Assembly (NCBI RefSeq): GCF_002017865.1
Contig: NZ_MTJN01000002.1
Coordinates: 2,914,001 to 2,978,000, forward strand
Length of the DNA stretch: 64,000 nucleotides
DNA from: Rhodoferax fermentans
GTDB taxonomy: Bacteria > Pseudomonadota > Gammaproteobacteria > Burkholderiales > Burkholderiaceae_C
Direction of reading: 5' to 3'
Under the pieces are notes generated by a model. The model was not told where the DNA came from. It was given only the letters and a program-made list of their open reading frames with translations, and searched no databases. The position numbers and the translations under genes were made by a program. Within the stretch, counting starts at the first letter, position 1, and every line of letters starts with the position of its first letter. Shown here piece by piece: positions 5,594 through 43,155 of the stretch.

Positions 5594-6361
5594 ATGACTT
5601 TTTTGGCAATGGACGTGGGCAATACCCGCCTGAAATGGGCCCTGCATGCTGCACCCAGGCGCGACGCGCCGGTGCTGGCCCAGGGGGTGCAATTCCTCGA
5701 CAACATCGAAACACTGGCTGAAGGTGACTGGTCACGCATCCCGCCGCCGCAGCATGTGTTGGGTTGCCTGGTGGCCGGTGAGGCGGTCAAACGCCGGGTC
5801 GAAGAACAGATGGAGCTGTGGGACGTGTCGGCCCAGTGGGTGGTGGCCAGCAGCGAAGAGGCCGGTGTCACCAACGGCTACGACTACCCGGCGCGCCTGG
5901 GGGCCGACCGCTGGGTGGCGATGATCGGCGCCTGGCACCGCGCCCTCAAGTTGGGCCCGGCGCGACCGCTGGTGGTGGTGATGGTCGGCACGGCCGTCAC
6001 GGTGGATGCGCTGGACGCCACCGGCCGTTTTCTGGGCGGCCTGATCCTGCCCGGCCACGGCATCATGTTGCGCGCCATGGAGTCCGGCACCGCTGGCCTG
6101 AGTGTGCCGACCGGCAATGTGGTCGATTTCCCCACCAACACCAGTGACGCCCTCACCAGCGGCGGTACCTACGCGATTGTGGGTGCGGTGGACCGTATGT
6201 TGCAGCATGTGCGCCAGCACTGTGGCGCCGAGCCGCTGTGCCTGATGACCGGTGGCGCCGGCTGGAAGGTGGCACCCAGCATGACCAGCACATTCGAGCT
6301 GGTCGACAACCTGCTGTTTGACGGCCTGCTGGAGATGGCCAGTCGCCGGTTTGCACAATAA
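5594..6361 (+). CDS. coaX: type III pantothenate kinase
   Basis: This 255-residue enzyme phosphorylates pantothenate, the first step of coenzyme A synthesis. The phosphate-binding DVGNTRLKW lies at the N-terminus, [12 protein letters not shown] near residue 103, and [10 protein letters not shown] with GGLILPG in the middle, as in the ASKHA-fold CoaX family. The length is normal. ATG 5594 puts the DVGNT motif a few residues from the start as in relatives; the longer frame from 5528 adds non-homologous residues. The common partner birA is not next to it here. Confidence 0.93.
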
Positions 6362-6363
6362 AT

Positions 6364-6410
6364 CAGGATCTGGCCCTTATAAAATAAGGGCTGGTAGCTA
6401 TTCTTTTTGC
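6364..6410 (+). repeat. palindromic repeat element acting as a convergent-gene hairpin
   Basis: GCCCTTAT (6373-6380), loop AAA, ATAAGGGC (6384-6391) make a perfect stem, followed by the family signature TGGTAGCTATTC. It separates coaX from the convergent M20 gene, whose stop codon lies at its right edge, and may serve as a terminator. Confidence 0.75.
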
Positions 6411-7603
6411 TTTGACAACCAGGTCTGTGCCAGCCGCACCCAGTAGGTCGCACCCAGCGGCAGCAGCGCGTCGTTGAAGTCGTAACTGGCGTTGTGCAAC
6501 ACACAGGGGCCCGCACCGTGGCCCAGCTCGCGGTGGCTGCCGTCGCCGTTGGCGATGAAGGCATAACAGCCCGGTTTTTCTTGCAGCATGTACGAGAAAT
6601 CTTCCGCGCCCATGGTGGGCTCCTGGGTGTGCACCTTGTCGGGGCCCACGATCTCGGCCATCACCTGGCGGCAAAACTCGGCCTCGGCCGCGCTGTTGAT
6701 GGTGGGCGGGTAGTTGCGGTGGAAGTCAAAGTCCGCACTCAGGCCAAACGCGGCGCACAGCTGCTCGGTCATGTCCTTCATGCGCTGCTCGATCAGGTCC
6801 AGCACCTCAAAGGAGAAAGTGCGCACCGTGCCTTGTAATTCACAGCTGTTGGGGATGACGTTGGTGGCTTCACCAGCGTGGATCATGGTGACCGAGATCA
6901 CGCCGGCATCGATCGGTTTGAGGTTGCGGCTGATGATGCTCTGAAAACCCTGCACCAGTTGACAGGCCACCGGCACCGGGTCGAGCGTGTTGTGCGGGAT
7001 TGCCGCGTGGCCGCCCTTGCCGCGCACGGTGATCTTGAACTCGTTGCTGGATGCCATCACCGGCCCCGGGCTGGCGGCAAATGTGCCGCTCTCATAACCG
7101 GGCCAGTTGTGCAGGCCAAACACGGCCTGCATCGGGAATTGCTTAAACAGGCCGTCCTTGATCATCTCGCGTGCGCCGCCGCCGCCTTCTTCGGCCGGTT
7201 GGAAGATCAGGTAGACGGTGCCGTCAAAGTCGCGGTGGCTGCTGAGGTACTGGGCTGCCGCCAGCAGCATCGCGGTGTGGCCGTCGTGGCCGCAGGCGTG
7301 CATCTTGCCGGGGTGGGTGCTGGCGTGGGCAAAGGTGTTGAGCTCTTGCATCGGCAGCGCGTCCATGTCGGCACGCAGGCCCAGCGCATGGCCACAGGCG
7401 CCGCCGTCGCGCCCGTTCAGGATGCCGACCACACCGGTGGTGCCCAGGCCACGGTGCACCGGGATGCCCCATTCGCTGAGTTTGTTTGCCACCAGCTCGG
7501 CGGTGCGGACTTCTTTGAAACACAGCTCGGGGTGGGCGTGGATGTCGCGTCGCAGGGCGGCGATGGCGGGGCTGTTTTGGGTGAGGGTCTCGATGAGTTT
7601 CAT
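6398..7603 (-). CDS. M20-family amidohydrolase (hippurate hydrolase/amidase type)
   Basis: The 401-residue protein has the full M20D layout: DIHAHPELCFKE near residue 20, metal-binding HACGHDGHTAMLL near 100, EEGGGGAREM near 137, HNWPGYESG, and a dimerisation insert around 180-300. Such enzymes cleave N-acyl amino acids or hippurate with one or two divalent metals in the cytoplasm; the substrate cannot be read from sequence. It converges with coaX. Confidence 0.88.
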   Translation of the reverse strand: MKLIETLTQNSPAIAALRRDIHAHPELCFKEVRTAELVANKLSEWGIPVHRGLGTTGVVGILNGRDGGACGHALGLRADMDALPMQELNTFAHASTHPGKMHACGHDGHTAMLLAAAQYLSSHRDFDGTVYLIFQPAEEGGGGAREMIKDGLFKQFPMQAVFGLHNWPGYESGTFAASPGPVMASSNEFKITVRGKGGHAAIPHNTLDPVPVACQLVQGFQSIISRNLKPIDAGVISVTMIHAGEATNVIPNSCELQGTVRTFSFEVLDLIEQRMKDMTEQLCAAFGLSADFDFHRNYPPTINSAAEAEFCRQVMAEIVGPDKVHTQEPTMGAEDFSYMLQEKPGCYAFIANGDGSHRELGHGAGPCVLHNASYDFNDALLPLGATYWVRLAQTWLSKQKE

Positions 7604-7750
7604 GTCGGGCAGGGCAGGTTGCGTGTGGGCTGAAGGGCAGTGATGGCATTATGAAGCGGGTGCTGAGTCCTTCTTGCGGGTGATGCTGTTGGTGCTTGTT
7701 CCGTTGGTTCTGTTCATCCAGCGGTGTTGGTTGTTCAGCGTGTTGGTGCG

Positions 7751-7820
7751 CCGGGGCGGGTATGGCCAGGGGCCTCATACTGGGGTACCAGAAATCGGCC
7801 CCTGGCCATACCCACCCCGG
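7751..7820. repeat. long hairpin element A, 24-bp arms and 22-nt conserved loop
   Basis: Arms at 7751-7774 and 7797-7820 pair with a single mismatch. The 22-nt loop at 7775-7796 is the exact reverse complement of the loop of hairpin B. It lies in a 510-bp gene-free interval between the M20 gene and the molybdopterin oxidoreductase gene. Confidence 0.85.
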
Positions 7821-7936
7821 CTTGAACGGCGGCTTGTGAGCGCCGAGCTGGAAATACAGACAACCACAAAGTCCGTATCGCGCCCGTGTTGCCTCCAGTA
7901 TGGTCTTGCAACCTTTTGCACACCACCAACGTTTGC

Positions 7937-8014
7937 AGCATGGAGGTGGACCGGGCTGGGCGCCGATTTCTGGTACCCCAGTATGAGGCGCCCGGCCCGG
8001 TCTGCCTCCATGCT
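7937..8014. repeat. long hairpin element B, 28-bp arms and the same loop inverted
   Basis: Arms at 7937-7964 and 7987-8014 pair with three mismatches. The arm sequences differ from those of hairpin A, but the loop at 7965-7986 is identical in reverse orientation. The interval 7604-8113 holds no convincing gene. Confidence 0.85.
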
Positions 8015-8113
8015 ACCCACCGCAGCAGGCGCTGGATGGAAGCCGCTTTTTCGGAAGAGGCTTTCCAAAGCCGGATATGCTCTTTCACCCATTTCGCCAT
8101 TCAGAAGCCTGCC

Positions 8114-10180
8114 ATGCCCCACAGCACCACCGCCCCCCATTCCTTCCAAGTCAGAGGCGCCTGCCCCCACGATTGCCCCGACACCTGTTCCCTGCTGACC
8201 ACGGTGGAAAATGGTGTGGCGATCAAGGTCCAGGGCAACCCGGCGCACCCGCACACCGGCGGCAGCCTGTGCACCAAGGTGTCGCGTTACACCGAACGCA
8301 CCTACCACCCGGATCGGCTGCTGCAGCCGATGAAGCGGACCGGTCCCAAAGGCTCGGGCCAGTTTGCGCCGGTGAGCTGGGATGAAGCGCTGGACGACAT
8401 CGCGGCGCGCCTCAACGTCATTGCCGCGCGTGACCCGCAGGCCATCCTGCCCTACAGCTACGCGGGCACCATGGGTCTGGTGCAGGGCGAGAGCATCGCC
8501 GGGCGTTTTTTCAACAAACTCGGCGCGTCCCAGTTGGAGCGCACCATCTGCGCCGCCGCCGGTGGTGTTGGGCTGGTGCACACGCTGGGTGGCAAGGTCG
8601 GCATGCGGGTCGAGTTTTTTGCCGAGTCCAAACTGATCCTGATCTGGGGCAGCAACTCGATCACCAGCAACTTGCATTTCTGGCGCTATGCCAGCCAGGC
8701 CAAACGCGATGGCGCCAAGCTCATTTGCATTGACCCGCGCAAAAGTGAAACCGCCGACAAATGCCATGAGCATATTGCCCTCTTGCCCGGAACCGACGGG
8801 GCTTTGGCGCTAGCCATCATGCAGCAGTTGATTGTTCATGACTGGCTCGACCACAACTACCTGGCGCGTTACACCCTGGGCTGGGAACAGATGCGTGAGC
8901 GCGCCCTGCAGTGGCCGCCTGAGCGCGCCGCTGCGGTATGTGGCATCGATGCTTCGCAGATCGAATCGCTGGCGCGGGACTATGGTGCGTTTGCCAACAG
9001 CAACCAGGCCGCCGCCATCCGTATGAACTACGGCCTGCAGCGGGTGCATGGTGGTGGCAACGCGGTGCGCCTGATTGCCCTGTTGCCGGCGCTGATTGGT
9101 GCCTGGCGCCACCGCGCTGGGGGTGTGTTGCTGAGCAACTCGGGCGCTTTCCCGGTGCAACGCGCGGCGCTGGAGCGGCCTGACCTGCGCGCCGGGCGCG
9201 CCTCACGCACCATCAACATGGCGACCATCGGCAACGATTTATTGCGCCCCACCAGCCCCGAATTCGGCCCGGCGGTGGAGGCGCTGATCGTCTACAACAG
9301 CAACCCGGTGGCGATTGCACCCGATTCGGCCAAGGTCGTGGCCGGTTTTGCGCGTGAGGATCTGTTCACCGTGGTGCTGGAGCATTTCCAGACCGACACC
9401 GCCGACTACGCCGACTATGTCTTGCCCGCCACCACCCAGCTCGAACACTGGGACGTGCATTCCGCCTACGGCCACACCGACGCACTGCTCAATCGCCCGG
9501 CAATTGCGCCGGTGGGCCAGGCCTGGCCCAACACCCAGATCTTTCGCGAACTCAGCCGCCGTATGGGTTTCGCCGAGCCCTGTTTCAGTGACAGCGACGA
9601 GGACCTGTGCCGCCAAGCCTATGGCGACAAAGTGGACTTCAACACTTTGCTGGACCAGGGTTTTGCCACGCTGCCTGGCCCTGAGGCTCCCTTTGCCCAG
9701 GGTGGTTTTCCCACACCGTCGGGCCAATGTGAATTTTTCAGCCAGCGCCTGGCCGATTTGGGCCTGGACGGTCTGCCTGACCATGTGCCCAACCACGAGT
9801 CAGCGGGCAGTTCTCAGACCTACCCGCTGGCGATGATCTCGCCGCCAGCGCGCAACTTCCTGAACTCCAGCTTTGTCAACGTGGGCAGCCTGCGCCAAAG
9901 TGAAGGGGAGCCGCTGCTGGAAATGCACCCGGCAGATGCCGCAGCACGCCAGCTGCAAGACGGTGCGCTGGTGCGGGTGTTCAACCCGCGCGGTGAACAC
10001 CGCTGCCGCCTGAGTCTGAACGACCGTGCACGCCCCGGTGTGGTGGTGGGCCTGGGTGTCTGGTGGCGCAAGTTCGGGCTCGATGGCCACAACGTCAACC
10101 AGCTCACCAGCCAAGCGCTCACCGATCTGGGCAACGCGCCAACCTTTTACGACTGTCTGGTCGACGTGCAGGCCGCCTGA
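8114..10180 (+). CDS. molybdopterin oxidoreductase with N-terminal 4Fe-4S site
   Basis: This 688-residue member of the DMSO-reductase superfamily has a cluster site CPHDCPDTC with a fourth Cys about 27 residues on (GSLCTKVSRY). The molybdopterin domain follows (PVSWDEALDDIAARL, IWGSNSITSNLHFWRY, NSNPVAIAPDS) and then a C-terminal cofactor-binding barrel from about 570. No twin-arginine signal is visible, so it is probably cytoplasmic. Substrate unknown; no electron-transfer or membrane partner is adjacent. ATG 8114 is used; an open extension upstream runs through hairpin B. Confidence 0.85.
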   Translation: MPHSTTAPHSFQVRGACPHDCPDTCSLLTTVENGVAIKVQGNPAHPHTGGSLCTKVSRYTERTYHPDRLLQPMKRTGPKGSGQFAPVSWDEALDDIAARLNVIAARDPQAILPYSYAGTMGLVQGESIAGRFFNKLGASQLERTICAAAGGVGLVHTLGGKVGMRVEFFAESKLILIWGSNSITSNLHFWRYASQAKRDGAKLICIDPRKSETADKCHEHIALLPGTDGALALAIMQQLIVHDWLDHNYLARYTLGWEQMRERALQWPPERAAAVCGIDASQIESLARDYGAFANSNQAAAIRMNYGLQRVHGGGNAVRLIALLPALIGAWRHRAGGVLLSNSGAFPVQRAALERPDLRAGRASRTINMATIGNDLLRPTSPEFGPAVEALIVYNSNPVAIAPDSAKVVAGFAREDLFTVVLEHFQTDTADYADYVLPATTQLEHWDVHSAYGHTDALLNRPAIAPVGQAWPNTQIFRELSRRMGFAEPCFSDSDEDLCRQAYGDKVDFNTLLDQGFATLPGPEAPFAQGGFPTPSGQCEFFSQRLADLGLDGLPDHVPNHESAGSSQTYPLAMISPPARNFLNSSFVNVGSLRQSEGEPLLEMHPADAAARQLQDGALVRVFNPRGEHRCRLSLNDRARPGVVVGLGVWWRKFGLDGHNVNQLTSQALTDLGNAPTFYDCLVDVQAA

Positions 10181-15349: not shown

Positions 15350-16753
15350 GTGACCGTGCCAAACCATCAGTACAACCACATCGTCGGAGCCAAAACCTAC
15401 CGCTTTCGCGATTTGAAGGACCTGATGGCCAAGGCCACACCAGCACGCTCGGGCGACCTGCTGGCCGGTGTGGCCGCCAGCAGTGCGCAGGAGCGGGTCG
15501 TGGCCCAAATGGTCCTGGCCGATGTTCCGCTCAAGGCTTTCTTGACCGACGTTCTGGTGCCATATGAAGCCGACGAGATCACGCGCCTGATCATTGACAG
15601 CCACGATGCCCAGGCCTTTGCCCCCGTCAGCCACCTGACGGTGGGTGACTTTCGCAACTGGCTGCTGGGTGACGAGGTCGACAGTGCGGTGCTTTCGGCG
15701 CTGGCGCCAGGCATCACCCCCGAAATGGCGGCGTCCGTTTCCAAGATCATGCGCAACCAGGACCTGATCCTGGTCGCCAAAAAATGCCGTGTGGTCACCC
15801 AATTCCGCAACACCATCGGCCTGCCCGGTCGCATGGCCACGCGTTTGCAACCGAATCACCCGACCGACGACGCCACCGGCATCGCCGCGAGCCTGCTTGA
15901 CGGTCTGCTGTACGGCAGCGGCGACGCGGTGATTGGCATCAACCCGGCCACCGACAATGTGCCGCAAGTCATCAAGCTGGTGACGATGATGAGCGACATC
16001 ATTGCGCAGTACCAGATTCCGACCCAGTCCTGCGTGCTCACCCACGTGACCAACACCATCGAGGCGATCCGCCGGGGTGCGCCGGTGGACCTGGTGTTTC
16101 AGTCGATTGGTGGCACCGAGGCCACCAACCGCAGTTTTGGTGTGAACCTGGATGTGTTGGCCGAGGCGCGCAGCGCCGCCTTGTCGCTGAATCGCGGTAC
16201 GGTCGGTGACAACGTGATGTATTTCGAGACCGGCCAGGGCAGTGCCCTGTCGGCCAACGCCCACCATGGTCTGGACCAGCAAACCTGCGAGGCGCGTGCC
16301 TATGCGGTGGCGCGGCACTTCAAGCCGCTCTTGGTCAACACCGTGGTCGGCTTCATCGGGCCGGAGTATTTGTTTGACGGCAAACAGATCATGCGCGCCG
16401 GGCTCGAAGACCACTTCTGCGCCAAGCTGCTGGGCCTGCCGATGGGTTGTGACGTCTGTTACACCAACCACGCCGAGGCTGACCAGAACGACATGGACGT
16501 GTTACTGACCTTGCTGGGTGTGGCCGGCTGCAACTTTGTCATGGGCATTCCCGGCTCGGACGACATCATGCTCAATTACCAGACCACCTCGTTCCACGAC
16601 GCGCTCTATGTGCGCCGGGTGCTCGGTCTCCAACCCGCGCCCGAGTTCGAGGCCTGGTTGCAGAAGATGCAGATCTTCAGCGCAGATGAGCAGTTTCGGC
16701 TCAACGCGACCCTGCCTGCTGCGTTCCAGAAGGCGTTGCTGCGCCTGAACTGA
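15350..16753 (+). CDS. eutB: ethanolamine ammonia-lyase large subunit
   Basis: The 467-residue catalytic subunit of the adenosylcobalamin-dependent lyase converts ethanolamine to acetaldehyde and ammonia. Characteristic stretches are KTYRFRDLKDLMAKA at the start, FRNTIGLPGRMATRLQPNHP, FQSIGGTEATNRSFGVNLD, YFETGQGSALSANAHHG and NHAEADQNDMDVLL. It starts with GTG at 15350 (another GTG lies 6 bases on). It is followed after 12 bases by eutC. The reactivating factor EutA is not in the cluster. Confidence 0.95.
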   Translation: MTVPNHQYNHIVGAKTYRFRDLKDLMAKATPARSGDLLAGVAASSAQERVVAQMVLADVPLKAFLTDVLVPYEADEITRLIIDSHDAQAFAPVSHLTVGDFRNWLLGDEVDSAVLSALAPGITPEMAASVSKIMRNQDLILVAKKCRVVTQFRNTIGLPGRMATRLQPNHPTDDATGIAASLLDGLLYGSGDAVIGINPATDNVPQVIKLVTMMSDIIAQYQIPTQSCVLTHVTNTIEAIRRGAPVDLVFQSIGGTEATNRSFGVNLDVLAEARSAALSLNRGTVGDNVMYFETGQGSALSANAHHGLDQQTCEARAYAVARHFKPLLVNTVVGFIGPEYLFDGKQIMRAGLEDHFCAKLLGLPMGCDVCYTNHAEADQNDMDVLLTLLGVAGCNFVMGIPGSDDIMLNYQTTSFHDALYVRRVLGLQPAPEFEAWLQKMQIFSADEQFRLNATLPAAFQKALLRLN

Positions 16754-16765
16754 AGCGACCTGACG

Positions 16766-17596
16766 ATGGACGATCCGAAACCACCTGTCACGGCCAACCC
16801 CTGGGCCGCACTGCGCCAGTTCACCGATGCGCGTATTGCGCTCGGGCGCGCCGGTGTCAGCCTGCCCACGGCCGCCCACCTAGACTTTCAACTGGCCCAC
16901 GCCCAGGCCCGTGACGCGGTGCATTTGGCGCTCGATGTGAGCACGCTGGCGCAGACGCTGGATGCCGCGCTGCCTGATCTGCCCGCACCGTGCCTTGCGC
17001 TGCACAGCGCCGCCGGTGATCGCAGCGTTTATTTGCAACGCCCCGACCTGGGACGCAGGCTGGATGTGGCCTCGCGCGAGCGCCTGAGCGCCTTGCCACG
17101 ACCGGCATCCGTGTCACCCGCCGAGCGCCCCTATGACCTCGCGGTGGTGGTGGTGGATGGTTTGTCGGCGCTGGCCATCAGCCAGAACGCTGCGCCTTTT
17201 CTGACCCAGTTGTTTGAGCGCCTTGTGCCCCAGCAGCTGACCATCGCCCCGGTGTGTCTCGTCGAGCAGGGCCGCGTCGCAATTGGCGACGAGGTGGGTG
17301 AGCTGCTGGGGGCGCAAGCCGTGCTGGTGCTGATTGGTGAACGCCCGGGCCTGAGTTCACCCGACAGCCTGGGTCTGTACCTGACCTGGGCGCCACGCGT
17401 CGGCCTGACCGACGCCAACCGCAACTGCATCTCCAACGTGCGCCCGGCTGGTCTGGGTTATGCCGAGGCGGCTCACAAGCTGGTGTATCTGCTGACGCAG
17501 GCGCGCCATCGCCAGTTGTCCGGGGTGGACCTCAAGGATGAGACGGGCGGTGGGACGGAGTTGCTGGCTGGGGCTGCCAAGAACTTCTTGCTGTGA
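16766..17596 (+). CDS. eutC: ethanolamine ammonia-lyase small subunit
   Basis: The 276-residue subunit forms the B12-binding complex with EutB. Recognisable are [39 protein letters not shown] near residue 35, [50 protein letters not shown] and [15 protein letters not shown]. It is the last gene of the eat-eutB-eutC operon. No microcompartment shell or acetaldehyde dehydrogenase gene follows. Confidence 0.93.
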
Positions 17597-17611
17597 GGGG
17601 TGGTGTTGTCG

Positions 17612-17633
17612 ATCCGATACCATGGCATCGGAT
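17612..17633. repeat. small inverted repeat after eutC
   Basis: ATCCGAT and ATCGGAT face each other across an eight-base loop, 15 bases after the eutC stop. There is no T-run, so termination is only a possibility. Confidence 0.4.
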
Positions 17634-17865
17634 GTGGTGTGCTATGTATGATATAGCAACCTGCCTAGGTACTACATTGGCTACAGGCCAGAAACACTGA
17701 TGAAAAGAAGAAGAGGGGTATGGCCCCAATGGCACTGCACTGGCTGAACTTGATGCCTTTGAAAGTGGCCCAAGGGACAAGAAATTTCCCACTGTGATGA
17801 GTGCATGGCGCCTTGTCTCGGTTACACAATTGCCGACCGTTGCCCGAAACCAATTTGTCAAAACG

Positions 17866-18297
17866 TCACAAATGAACAATTTCAACATCTGACCATTTGT
17901 TGCGAAGATATTCGGCAACAAGTCGCCGATGGCAGTGGTGAGGCTTATCCTCGCTGCAGAGCAGACAGCCGCCATCAAGTTGCTGCCGATCAATATCCTC
18001 AATGCGACGTTTGGCCATCAGATCAAGAAATTTATTCTCGTAGATGTCCCACGCACCGCCATTCTTCTTGTACTCATCCAAGATATCCTGAGTCGGCGCC
18101 AATTTAGATACATGCTCATAGCCCAGGCCGCAGATCTGCTTGGTGAAATATCGTAAATCGTCCCTTTTCGCAAAACCAGCGAGCTGAGAAATATTGTTGA
18201 GACGAACATCAACCAGCTTTGTGGCTCCCGACTTCATTAATCGCGTGAAGAAGCCCTCCGCTGAGGTTTTAGTGAACCCAATCGTATAGATTTTCAC
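17866..18297 (-). CDS. DUF488 protein (second of a pair)
   Basis: The 143-residue protein opens MKIYTIGFTKTSAEGFF, contains VDVRLNNISQLAGFAKRDDLRYF, and ends with the DUF488 signature LLCSEDKPHHCHRRLVAEYL (C-x-E, then CHR). The function of DUF488 is unknown to me; the conserved Cys/His pattern suggests a catalytic or metal site. Its start overlaps the stop of the preceding DUF488 gene in ATGA, so the two are coupled. Codon use is A/T-richer than in neighbouring operons. Confidence 0.85.
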   Translation of the reverse strand: MKIYTIGFTKTSAEGFFTRLMKSGATKLVDVRLNNISQLAGFAKRDDLRYFTKQICGLGYEHVSKLAPTQDILDEYKKNGGAWDIYENKFLDLMAKRRIEDIDRQQLDGGCLLCSEDKPHHCHRRLVAEYLRNKWSDVEIVHL

Positions 18298-18935
18298 TGT
18301 TCGTCCTCTTCGTTGTACGCGATTTCAGCGCTCTTTGTTGGCGTTCCGCGATTTGCTTTTCGATCGTAAGCAATCCGCTCAGCTTGTTTTTCATAGGCAT
18401 CATCGACGGTGAGCTCTTCTGAACGAAACATGTCGGCTTCGCCTAACCCCATTTTTACAATCAATCTGGCGATTGCGTCCCGATGCGCTTCGGTTGAACC
18501 ATCCTGAAGAATGTGAGTGACATTTGCGCCGCGACTTACAAGTTCTCGGGCAACGAGGATTGTCCGATGGCAATCTAGTGGATCTTTCTCAGCGCACATT
18601 AGTGCGATTTTGTGAGTCGCCGCACCCTCGATAACACGAGTGAGACCAGATTGAAAGAGAGGTGTCCGGGCTAGCAATTTAAATTGAACCTTGCCGTCAA
18701 CGTAACAGCACTCATCATCACTCCTTGCACCCAATTCCTTGCCAAGAAAAGCGTACCGTATTCCGTGCACTTTCAACGCATTGCGGAGTTCTTCCCGATT
18801 GAACTGCGGGTTGAACCGACTGTATGGAGCAGACCGAACATCGGCAATGGCAGTCACTCCCTGCTTCTGAAGCAAGCTGAGGAATTTCTCAAATGATTGG
18901 GTCGAATGTCCGACCGTGTATATCTCAATGACCAT
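18294..18935 (-). CDS. DUF488 protein (first of a pair)
   Basis: The 213-residue protein opens MVIEIYTVGHSTQSFEKFL, has ADVRSAPYSRFNPQFNREEL near residue 35 and the signature LMCAEKDPLDCHRTILVAREL near 115. A charged C-terminal extension of about 60 residues (AERIAYDRKANRG...) is absent from its partner. It overlaps the upstream dual-OB gene by 11 bp and the downstream DUF488 gene by 4 bp. Two paralogues in one operon suggest a heteromeric or division-of-labour arrangement. Confidence 0.85.
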   Translation of the reverse strand: MVIEIYTVGHSTQSFEKFLSLLQKQGVTAIADVRSAPYSRFNPQFNREELRNALKVHGIRYAFLGKELGARSDDECCYVDGKVQFKLLARTPLFQSGLTRVIEGAATHKIALMCAEKDPLDCHRTILVARELVSRGANVTHILQDGSTEAHRDAIARLIVKMGLGEADMFRSEELTVDDAYEKQAERIAYDRKANRGTPTKSAEIAYNEEDEQ

Positions 18936-19635
18936 TTATTTGTGCACATCTTTGCGGGGTAATAAGCGAAGCAACTACGCGAAATGCAAAGCCGTTCCAT
19001 ATTTCGACCAAGCTCACGCAAAGCGCTGCTACTCCGATAGGGTACTTTCCATCGCCTCTCACCAAATACGCCTGCTCAATTTCAGGATCTGTAATCGACA
19101 TGAAATAGGGCGTGTGATTCAACGTAAATCGGGCACGCACGCGTCGTCTTGCTTGGTTCCCTTGAAAACCGTCTTCAACTTGAACCACGACCTCCAAGTC
19201 AGAAACTGAAATCAACTTCAGCGAACCTCCTGCCCTCACCACATTCGCCTCGGCAACCTTGTCATTCTGTCCGTGCTGGGTGCATTGCGAATTGGCCCAG
19301 AAGGCCGGATCAAACGCATCCACACAGGAAACAACTTGATTCCAATTGGCAGTACCAGTCTTCGTCCAATAAAACTTGTCATCCAAAACGTGGTTTTCAA
19401 CCTGATGATCAAACGGGGCGACCTGAATCAACGGCACAGACACGATATCAAGGAGCTGCGCTTTGATACCGTTTTCATAACGTCGCTCTTCTTCAGAAAC
19501 CTCATGACTAGGTCTTGCGCTGACAGGTCGAAGCCACTTGCCTACCTTGTTGCCCTCGAATTCCTTCCCGGCGATGCATCTGCCAGACGGTGGTTTACGT
19601 GAGTTTGCAAGGCAAAGAATGGTCTTAAGGTACAT
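18925..19635 (-). CDS. dual OB-fold-type protein, first gene of the DUF488 cassette
   Basis: The 236-residue protein begins MYLKTILCLANSRKPPSGRC, then AGKEFEGNKVGKWLRPVSAR and LLDIVSVPLIQ. I recall this opening from proteins annotated as dual OB domain-containing; that is from memory. ATG 19635 is selected because AAGGAGCCCAG lies directly before it. The second half (SDLEVVVQVEDGFQGNQARRRVRARFTLNHTPYFMSITDPEIEQ) is beta-rich. It contains several cysteines but no classical catalytic motif. It overlaps the DUF488 gene downstream. Nucleic-acid or nucleotide binding is a guess from the fold. Confidence 0.6.
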   Translation of the reverse strand: MYLKTILCLANSRKPPSGRCIAGKEFEGNKVGKWLRPVSARPSHEVSEEERRYENGIKAQLLDIVSVPLIQVAPFDHQVENHVLDDKFYWTKTGTANWNQVVSCVDAFDPAFWANSQCTQHGQNDKVAEANVVRAGGSLKLISVSDLEVVVQVEDGFQGNQARRRVRARFTLNHTPYFMSITDPEIEQAYLVRGDGKYPIGVAALCVSLVEIWNGFAFRVVASLITPQRCAQINGH

Positions 19636-20214
19636 CTGGGCTCCTTGAGTAGAATTTTTTTTTAGGTGCTGGTCTTGGATATTGCTCGACTTTATGCACC
19701 AGAATTCGTGTCTCACATGGTATCCCAAGCCTCGAGTTAGAAGCGTCAATGACTGTATTGGATGCATTCAACAACAACAGAAAAATGGGCCAGGCTCAAA
19801 TTAAACTCAGGCCTTCTGGCCACCGATTGCCGGGGGTTGATGAGGTGTATGAGAAACCGGCCGCTACCCCAAGTGATATGGCGGCTATTAGCTATCAAAA
19901 TGCAAGCTATCAATCTGACCGCTTTGAGCGCGCATTTAAATGGGCCCCGGCCCTATTCGCCGGTATGAAGACGCAGCCTGCAAGCTGAACGAAAACGGGT
20001 CCAGACTCGAATTAAAACAACAGCCATTTTTTCAACCCTCGGCAGTAATCTGGCGCAACGCCTGGGCAACCACGGCCACCGGTTGCCAGAAAAAAGGGGC
20101 TAAGTCGAATAAGCTGGCCGCCCAAACGGCACAGGTCAACGGCATTTGAATGCACCCAACCCGTGCCATACTTCCCCTCGTCCCAAGCAACACCCCTGTG
20201 ATCGAGGTCAACCC
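19636..20214. other. gene-poor interval with two degenerate direct repeats
   Basis: No convincing gene is seen. Two similar stretches, 19781-19813 and 19991-20024 (GGGCCAGGCTCAAATTAAA and GGGTCCAGACTCGAATTAAA), lie 210 bp apart in direct orientation. A 79-codon frame (19749-19988) spans the interval but has no recognisable family and poor codon bias. The last 60 bases hold the galM ribosome-binding site. Confidence 0.4.
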
Positions 20215-41748: not shown

Positions 41749-43155
41749 ATGTCAATGGATTACAAGCAGTATCAGGAAGAAGTAACAGCCGACGTTGCGA
41801 AGATCATCGCCGATGCGAGTTGCCAACCAATCCTTTTCATCGGTTCCGGGTTCACGAAGCGCTATGCGAAAGGACCAAGCTGGGAAGAGCTTCTTGGAAT
41901 ACTTGCAAAGAAGTGCCCGCAGATCGACAAAGATTTTGCGTACTACAAGCAGTCCCACGGCAACGATCTGATGAAGATTGGTTCAGTGTTCTCACAGCTC
42001 TATCACGAATGGGGTTGGAACGCTGGAAAGAAGCATTTCCCACCACAGTACTTCGTAGCAAACGCTCCAAGAGATATTTTCATCAAACACGTGATTGGAG
42101 AAATCCTCGCTGGCCTCGGCCCCGACGCCAAAGGTTCGTATGGCTCTGCTGAGCTTGATGCAGAAATTGCCGCTCTTAAGGCGATCAGCGCTCATGCCAT
42201 CGTGACCACCAACTATGACGAAGTAATCGAACCACTATTTCCCGACTATGAGCGAGTCATCAGCCAACAGATTCTCCGAAAGCCTTTCCTTTCCATCGGC
42301 GAGATCTTCAAAATTCACGGCTGCATTTCAGATCCCGAAAGTATCGTTATTAATGAAGCGGACTACGCGCGCTTTGAGGATGACCACAAGTACCTGAGTG
42401 CAAAGCTGCTCACCTACTTCATTGAACACCCGTTGGTGTTCATCGGTTATCGAGCCAACGACCCAAACATCAAAAAGATTCTTTCGGACGTGGACAGGAT
42501 GATCCGGGCACAGGAGTATGAGCTCGTCCCGAATATCTATATTTTGGAATGGGATCCGACTCAGAACGAAGCCTCATACCCACCACGTGACAAGGTCTTG
42601 GCTGTCACCGCCGAACGCAACATCCGAATCAAGAGCATCACCGCGAACTCGTTCGAATGGGTCTTCAAAGCGTTCGGTCAGGCTGGCAACCTCGCCAAGA
42701 TCGACACGAAGCTTTTGCGGGCGTTAATGGCTCGTGCAGTTGATCTGGTCCGATCAGATATCCCGAAAAAGCACGTCGAGATCGACTTCAAGATGCTTGA
42801 GCACGCCGTCGAGACAGGTGAAAACTTCGCAAATTTATTTGGGGTCACGTCTGTTGGTGATTCATCAAAGATCAACCTGACACACAAATATGTCATTAGC
42901 GAGGTTTACAAAATGCTTGACTTACCAAGCTGGAAACGTGTCAATGATCTCATCAAGAAGATCGAAGACGAGACGGGCATGAATATCAAGAGCTATGACA
43001 ACAAGTACCATGTGAATGTGAAGTTCGGCGTCGCTGAAACCAGTAAGTCGCATAAATACTCAGATGCCTTCATCGACCTGCTCAGAAAAGTGATTGCGAA
43101 CCAGCCGTACAAAGTTGATGCCGACGAAATCACGGTCGCTTCTTCCAAAAAGTAG
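41749..43155 (+). CDS. SIR2-domain protein, candidate anti-phage NADase
   Basis: The 468-residue protein has an N-terminal SIR2-like domain (about 25-280): ILFIGSGFTKRYAKGPSWEELL (nucleotide loop), HAIVTTNYDEVIEPLF, KIHGCISDPESIV (catalytic His), FIGYRANDPNI. The C-terminal ~190 residues are unrecognised and mostly charged. Proteins of this SIR2_2 group in bacteria often act as NAD-depleting defence effectors. It stands alone, is A/T-richer than its neighbours, has a strong AGGAGG, and sits between two palindromic repeats at an apparently recombined site. A partner sensor gene is not adjacent. Confidence 0.82.
   Translation: MSMDYKQYQEEVTADVAKIIADASCQPILFIGSGFTKRYAKGPSWEELLGILAKKCPQIDKDFAYYKQSHGNDLMKIGSVFSQLYHEWGWNAGKKHFPPQYFVANAPRDIFIKHVIGEILAGLGPDAKGSYGSAELDAEIAALKAISAHAIVTTNYDEVIEPLFPDYERVISQQILRKPFLSIGEIFKIHGCISDPESIVINEADYARFEDDHKYLSAKLLTYFIEHPLVFIGYRANDPNIKKILSDVDRMIRAQEYELVPNIYILEWDPTQNEASYPPRDKVLAVTAERNIRIKSITANSFEWVFKAFGQAGNLAKIDTKLLRALMARAVDLVRSDIPKKHVEIDFKMLEHAVETGENFANLFGVTSVGDSSKINLTHKYVISEVYKMLDLPSWKRVNDLIKKIEDETGMNIKSYDNKYHVNVKFGVAETSKSHKYSDAFIDLLRKVIANQPYKVDADEITVASSKK

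Follow-up and report, generated by a model that had tools for sequence, protein, structure and literature searches.

What is the A/T-rich three-gene cassette that stands among housekeeping genes in Rhodoferax fermentans, and does it represent a new system? We addressed this question in a window of 64,000 nucleotides (contig NZ_MTJN01000002.1, positions 2,914,001 to 2,978,000; coordinates below are those of the window), in which an initial annotation made from the sequence alone had proposed an undescribed conflict or nucleotide-handling system. Our analysis identifies the cassette as an accessory insertion, probably acquired horizontally, that is already listed as a candidate defence system, and whose third gene, according to a gene tree of its relatives, has been exchanged several times between two enzyme types.

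A three-gene operon already listed as a candidate defence system

The three genes, which we named DuOB, DUFB and DUFC for this analysis, follow one another in the same direction on the minus strand. The first, DuOB (slot A, 18925..19635, 236 aa), matches the Pfam family DuOB (PF22557, 4.5e-67), in agreement with the dual-OB type first assigned to it; its two OB folds are predicted from this match and the family name. A Shine-Dalgarno-like AAGGAG (19641..19646, minus strand) is seen in the sequence 5 bases before its first ATG. DUFB (18294..18935, 213 aa), in the exchangeable slot B, is a DUF488 protein (PF04343, 1.5e-24) bearing a conserved C-terminal extension, and DUFC (17866..18297, 143 aa), in the core slot C, matches both PF04343 (4.1e-22) and DUF488-N3a (PF22751, 8.2e-09). 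With 36.2 bits for PF22751 against a cut-off of 27, DUFC is the sole DUF488-N3a member in the window, as DUFB scores 17 bits and passes the PF04343 cut-off only; the N3a family is also matched by 33 of 34 DUFC proteins at 1e-5. Both window DUF488 proteins keep the motif C-x-E-x2-P-x2-C-H-R, the Cys...CHR signature noted at the outset. DuOB and DUFB overlap by 11 bp and DUFB and DUFC by 4 bp, the GTG start codon of DUFC lying within the DUFB stop; these overlaps, together with the conservation of the genes as a unit, bear out the earlier reading of a single operon. Promoter-like (0) and terminator-like (1) sites at the cassette were below the counts in shuffles.

The trio matches, in gene order, components A, B and C of PDC-M45, a candidate system of PADLOC-DB v2 (release 2.0.0, 2023). 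PDC-M45A spans DuOB residues 2-230 (2.2e-86), PDC-M45B spans DUFB residues 3-197 (8.6e-90) and PDC-M45C spans DUFC residues 1-143 (1e-74). The genes are neighbours on one strand, as judged by their overlaps rather than by PADLOC's distance rule, and among the features tested the window agrees with PDC-M45 in all three components and their order, with no difference. Because Pfam already names DuOB and DUF488-N3a and PADLOC names PDC-M45A, B and C, the cassette is, by its sequence matches, a catalogued defence candidate. The proposal of a conflict system thus keeps the support of a conserved mobile operon with defence linkage elsewhere and loses its claim to be undescribed. An NCBIfam scan of the window cassette gave no match above cut-off. 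Among the papers searched, none uses the term PDC-M45, none joins DUF488 with "dual OB" and none is relevant by its title to DuOB and mSLOG. Both DUF488 and DUF4326, the domain that replaces DUFB in many relatives, are widespread domains still carried under "unknown function" names in Pfam. To the catalogued entry we add the accessory insertion, a third slot filled by one of two mutually exclusive, repeatedly exchanged proteins, an apparent gene fusion in the viral contig L137, and natural versions in E. coli and on small plasmids.

Insertion at the eut locus and sparse presence in relatives

The cassette is flanked by an amino-acid permease-eutB-eutC stretch on one side and by an aldose 1-epimerase gene on the other. 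Its base and codon use is A/T-richer than its surroundings, as had been remarked initially: GC content is 0.491, 0.494 and 0.470 in the three genes versus 0.593-0.671 in six nearby genes, GC3 is 0.48-0.53 versus 0.71-0.82, and the codon-adaptation index, trained on those very six genes, is 0.35-0.42 versus 0.58-0.73.

In none of the three relatives fetched (L053, L054, L055) was the cassette seen at the eut locus. L053 is 84% identical over 16006-17686, and blastn places window position 17686 directly beside about 20020 in its sequence, leaving an approximate inserted stretch of 2.3 kb (17687..20020); past the junction come 72 aligned bases, a differing stretch and then the epimerase gene. L054 (91%) has neither the cassette nor the epimerase gene, and the alignment of L055 is limited to the left side. 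Nothing clear was found at the insert in the way of flanking or terminal repeats or a target-site duplication, and no integrase was seen among its open frames. The R. fermentans genome itself (4.47 Mb, two contigs) holds a single DuOB match; DuOB occurs in 4 of the 60 genus genomes searched (this one counted), in 4 of 399 family genomes at E <= 0.001 (one weak), and in 5 of 398 phylum genomes (4 above cut-off), a sparse presence that does not resemble a housekeeping distribution. With the empty site, this presence and the plasmid and viral-contig copies described below, the mobile and accessory character suggested earlier is upheld, and sequence comparison identifies the window cassette as an accessory insertion that was probably acquired horizontally.

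A DUFC query matched 34 of the 399 family genomes. Of the four close matches, three have DuOB and one is a fragment (residues 94-143); the other 30 are distant DUF488 paralogues, with about 25-33% identity among the matches listed. The fragment, a 50-residue DUFC remnant in L081 (genome G360), lies near an apparent transposase sequence and is likely a relic of a lost cassette. The copy of Rhodoferax sp. U2-2l (L022, 9809-10291), in which the DuOB match is limited to C-terminal residues 141-235 and both DUF488 genes score as whole, is perhaps decaying. L053 carries at the same spot, beside the epimerase gene, a different gene (about 6197-6946) that is DsbA/FrnE-like by frame reading, and the site may therefore be a small insertion hotspot.

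Spread across phyla, plasmids and viral contigs

Scanning reference genomes once with a DuOB alignment, we recovered 17 loci, spread over Pseudomonadota, Spirochaetota, Myxococcota, Planctomycetota and Acidobacteriota, many of them metagenome bins whose taxonomy may err. DuOB also matched 18 of 72,556 plasmid records, 8 of which were fetched. On a 4.2-kb Klebsiella pneumoniae plasmid, DuOB, DUF488 and DUF4326 take most of the coding space, and a Citrobacter plasmid, also of 4.2 kb, has four annotated genes including DUF488 and DUF4326. On the 8.2-kb plasmids pA172 and pH205 (L098, L100), an ISEcp1-beta-lactamase unit adjoins DUF488/DUF4326 genes of the cassette kind, and DuOB is unannotated.

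Among predicted viral contigs, a scan with DUFC patterns yielded 39 loci, and DuOB scored in 33 of them. DuOB patterns had returned none; we discarded the apparent absence of DuOB from viral contigs as the product of too narrow a search, since the DUFC patterns gave these 39 loci. Of these records, 9 have a phage portal protein above cut-off (13 at E <= 0.001) and 11 have an integrase (12 at E <= 0.001); many of the 39 are fragmentary, and some may be host flanks. A tblastn search of 50,697 phage records with DuOB and DUFC found nothing, and a DNA-similarity search to name the phages of three viral contigs gave no identification. The occurrence on plasmids down to 4.2 kb, and in viral contigs together with phage genes, would suit a plasmid or prophage maintenance cassette of toxin-antitoxin type, or a counter-defence cassette. 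We nevertheless regard such a role as improbable, given three enzyme-like or binding genes with no small antitoxin-like gene among them, the defence neighbours of chromosomal copies (see below) and the lack of phage-record matches to DuOB and DUFC.

In E. coli, a DuOB-DUF488-DUF4326 cassette was found in 14 of 5,426 genomes, 9 of them matched over at least 80% of the cassette. Four of the six fetched loci lie between ffs and ybaA and a fifth is the ybaA side of that island, with a recombinase and an integrase in all five; the sixth lies near icd, next to phage genes and mcrA. One of the six carries a DuOB gene that its annotation marks as frameshifted. The ffs-ybaA island may have been rearranged, because the recombinase-DuOB-DUF488-DUF4326 block and the integrase stand in different relative order in L140 and L141. 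Judging from all these copies, the cassette travels as a unit and is mobile and widely shared. A compact recurrent set like this one, which exists naturally in E. coli as well as on plasmids of 4.2 kb, lends itself to easy cloning and testing.

A two-gene core with an exchangeable third gene

We tallied the components with local profile models in 77 loci: the window, L006-L022, L045-L052, eight genome loci (L056-L061, L063, L064), 39 viral loci and four E. coli loci. Omitted from the tally were L062, which seems to be the contig of L011 again, the E. coli loci L141 and L142, and the later plasmids L098-L100. Presence means anywhere in the fetched stretch, and adjacency was observed separately in subsets of the loci. 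The loci were picked by a DuOB or DUFC match, leaving the third gene unselected, except in E. coli, where the pairing is partly by choice because loci were selected by their DUF4326-bearing cassette.

DuOB and DUFC, a DUF488-N3a protein, form the usual core (69/77 loci), accompanied by DUFB in 32 loci and by DUF4326 in 36, and alone in one (L116, a cut contig). Five further loci combine DUFC with DUF4326, and two combine DUFC with DUFB, without a DuOB score; L061 and L064, which have none, show weak Pfam DuOB matches (25.5 and 51.2 bits, cut-off 27), and in L127 DUFC is at the end of the fetched stretch. The third slot holds a second DUF488 protein in 35 loci, counting the fusion in L137 (below), and an mSLOG-DUF4326 protein in 41, and in none of the 77 do DUFB and DUF4326 occur together. 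The same genes recur together in tens of loci, beyond chance, which is the recurrent neighbourhood that the initial annotation had asked for. The protein that takes the place of DUFB is a fusion of mSLOG with DUF4326, DUF4326 being above cut-off in 7/7 tested and mSLOG in 5/7; in this B position the fusion protein differs from PDC-M45, as it has no PADLOC match (4/4 tested). In the predicted viral contig L137, a single 377-aa frame (7308-8441, plus strand) carries DUFB (9-187) and DUFC (233-376) and appears to be a natural fusion of the two. Another candidate fusion, the 308-aa DUF488 match P0140, was rejected because it consists of an internal repeat that may have arisen in assembly.

A DUFC tree of 76 rows, whose bootstrap is not fully settled and which has many open forks and some long rows, needs six changes of the DUF4326 label, at least four of them forced by well-supported branches, and five of the DUFB label, at least three of them forced; shuffled labels need about 25. 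L014, a DUF4326 locus, groups with four DUFB loci in a clade with 100/96 support, and the DUF4326 loci L056/L103 are nested in a DUFB clade. Read in this way, the tree requires that the third slot was exchanged several times between the two types. Pairwise distances are correlated, as also expected from shared ancestry, between DuOB and DUFC (r = 0.61, 31 loci), DuOB and DUFB (0.77, 21 loci) and DUFB and DUFC (0.84, 21 loci), values reached by none of 2,000 permutations; the correlations among nine DUF4326 loci are weaker (0.75, 0.49 and 0.45), with 2, 43 and 52 of 2,000 permutations reaching them. These correlations omit L022, L061, L064 and other loci without a whole or clear copy.

Because each has replaced the other several times, plain DUF488 and mSLOG-DUF4326 may act equivalently on the core's product or substrate. 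We put forward only tentatively the resulting picture, in which DuOB and DUF488-N3a make up the core and a single enzyme slot is exchangeable, both third proteins sharing a biochemical role. If true, the cassette would be a modular immune system based on nucleotide chemistry; its second version would sense a nucleotide signal via SLOG, and the three-component PDC-M45 rule would miss this DUF4326 version. The exchange suggests allowing either third protein in defence finders, and it offers a direct handle on the required chemistry.

Defence genes beside the cassettes of relatives

The scanned neighbours of the window cassette are housekeeping genes, with no defence island and no defence gene among them. 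In other genomes, the linkage to known defence genes that had been suggested for checking is present. At 25 chromosomal loci, 183 unlabelled frames were listed, 7 of which are cassette genes of the divergent or DUF4326 type; after short frames were dropped, 128 neighbours and 10 cassette genes (three from plasmids) were scanned against PADLOC at 1e-10. These 138 genes match 126 + 50 PADLOC families (25 of each listed), as compared with 21 families for 115 control genes from 13 arbitrary stretches in five of the same genomes, family counts being inflated because one system has many models. The control matches include mad3 (6 genes), mad8 (4), E1-E2 and RT-protease XI. When 27 neighbours, drawn from 20 of the 25 loci and consisting mostly of long genes (some picked after the tallies were seen), were scanned singly, 10 matched at 1e-30 or better, in 9 loci, and 17 did not. 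The matches are pAgo (L007), KwaB and an RtcR-type regulator (L009), HEC-03B (L012), ZorA (L013), PDC-M37B (L014, partial), a type III methyltransferase (L016), PDC-S21 (L058), PglZ (L063) and PsyrT (L064). Three of the eight plasmid loci, seven of which are annotated, lie near annotated defence genes, namely CBASS (L048), type III CRISPR (L050) and viperin (L052).

The RtcR-type regulator near the L009 cassette would also fit a stress or damage repair cassette for DNA- or RNA-end healing with no anti-phage role, and end-processing enzymes are common in repair together with OB proteins. Such a role appears improbable in view of the sparse distribution (4/399 family and 5/398 phylum genomes), the mobility, the defence neighbours and the portal-bearing viral contigs. 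A defence role of the cassette, by comparison, is probable.

The two-cysteine loop and possible chemistry

The two-cysteine loop is kept in all 61 aligned enzymes (DUFB 21/21, DUFC 31/31, DUF4326 9/9). An AlphaFold2 model of DUFB (mean pLDDT 88.1) resembles the KAP, laforin and PRL-1 phosphatases, which are of the dual-specificity type, tied with methyltransferase folds. Among solved structures, DuOB had no match by sequence, single DUFB and DUFC gave chance-level matches only, and the three profiles found none at 0.1. Burroughs and Aravind are said to have defined, in 2023, a RapZ-C-DUF488-DUF4326 clade and to have predicted DNA-end processing in host-virus conflicts.

The methyltransferase resemblance would also fit a DNA- or nucleotide-modification cassette, whose enzymes would attach or alter a group on DNA bases and so mark self or block phage. 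The DuOB homologue P0062 is named "putative nucleic acid modification protein with dual OB domain" in one source, and DUF4326 has been linked with DNA modification (PMC7824862). No dedicated restriction partner, however, recurs beside the cassette in the neighbourhoods compared, and the conserved loop has two cysteines and is not known as a SAM site. We rank methyltransferase chemistry for DUFB lower because of this loop, and consider modification unlikely.

The reading that we find most likely, at about even odds, is an anti-phage cassette of PDC-M45 type, acquired horizontally, that processes nucleotides or nucleic-acid ends. This reading rests on the PDC-M45 trio match, the empty site, the sparse presence, the defence neighbours and the portal-bearing viral contigs, as well as on the two-cysteine loop, the phosphatase-like DUFB model, the L137 fusion and a proposal (PMC9503650) that DUF4326 acts on terminal phosphates of ADP-ribose derivatives. 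DuOB would bind a nucleic acid or nucleotide ligand and act as the recognition part, an assignment that could equally well prove right or wrong. DUF488-N3a, its usual partner, would belong to the rhodanese-phosphatase type of enzymes and use a cysteine to transfer or remove a group on a nucleotide or at the end of a nucleic acid, phosphate being the most likely group; cysteine phosphotransfer on such substrates is a plausible chemistry, to which we give slightly less than an even chance. The third protein would be a second cysteine enzyme in the same pathway, DUF488 here and mSLOG-DUF4326 elsewhere. As a result, invading DNA might be damaged or marked, or a nucleotide signal or pool removed. 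Viral DUF4326 proteins fused to SLOG, Macro or NADAR (PMC9503650, PMC7824862) resemble the mSLOG-DUF4326 fusion of the relatives; the latter differs in that it shares a bacterial operon with DuOB and DUF488-N3a, and the window has a DUF488 protein instead.

A second A/T-rich stretch of the window

At 41749-43155 (plus strand), 22 kb from the cassette, a second A/T-rich stretch encodes a 468-aa SIR2-like protein that matches the PADLOC candidate PDC-S25 (1.6e-81) and, more weakly, ThsA. It is a candidate for a separate, single-gene defence system.
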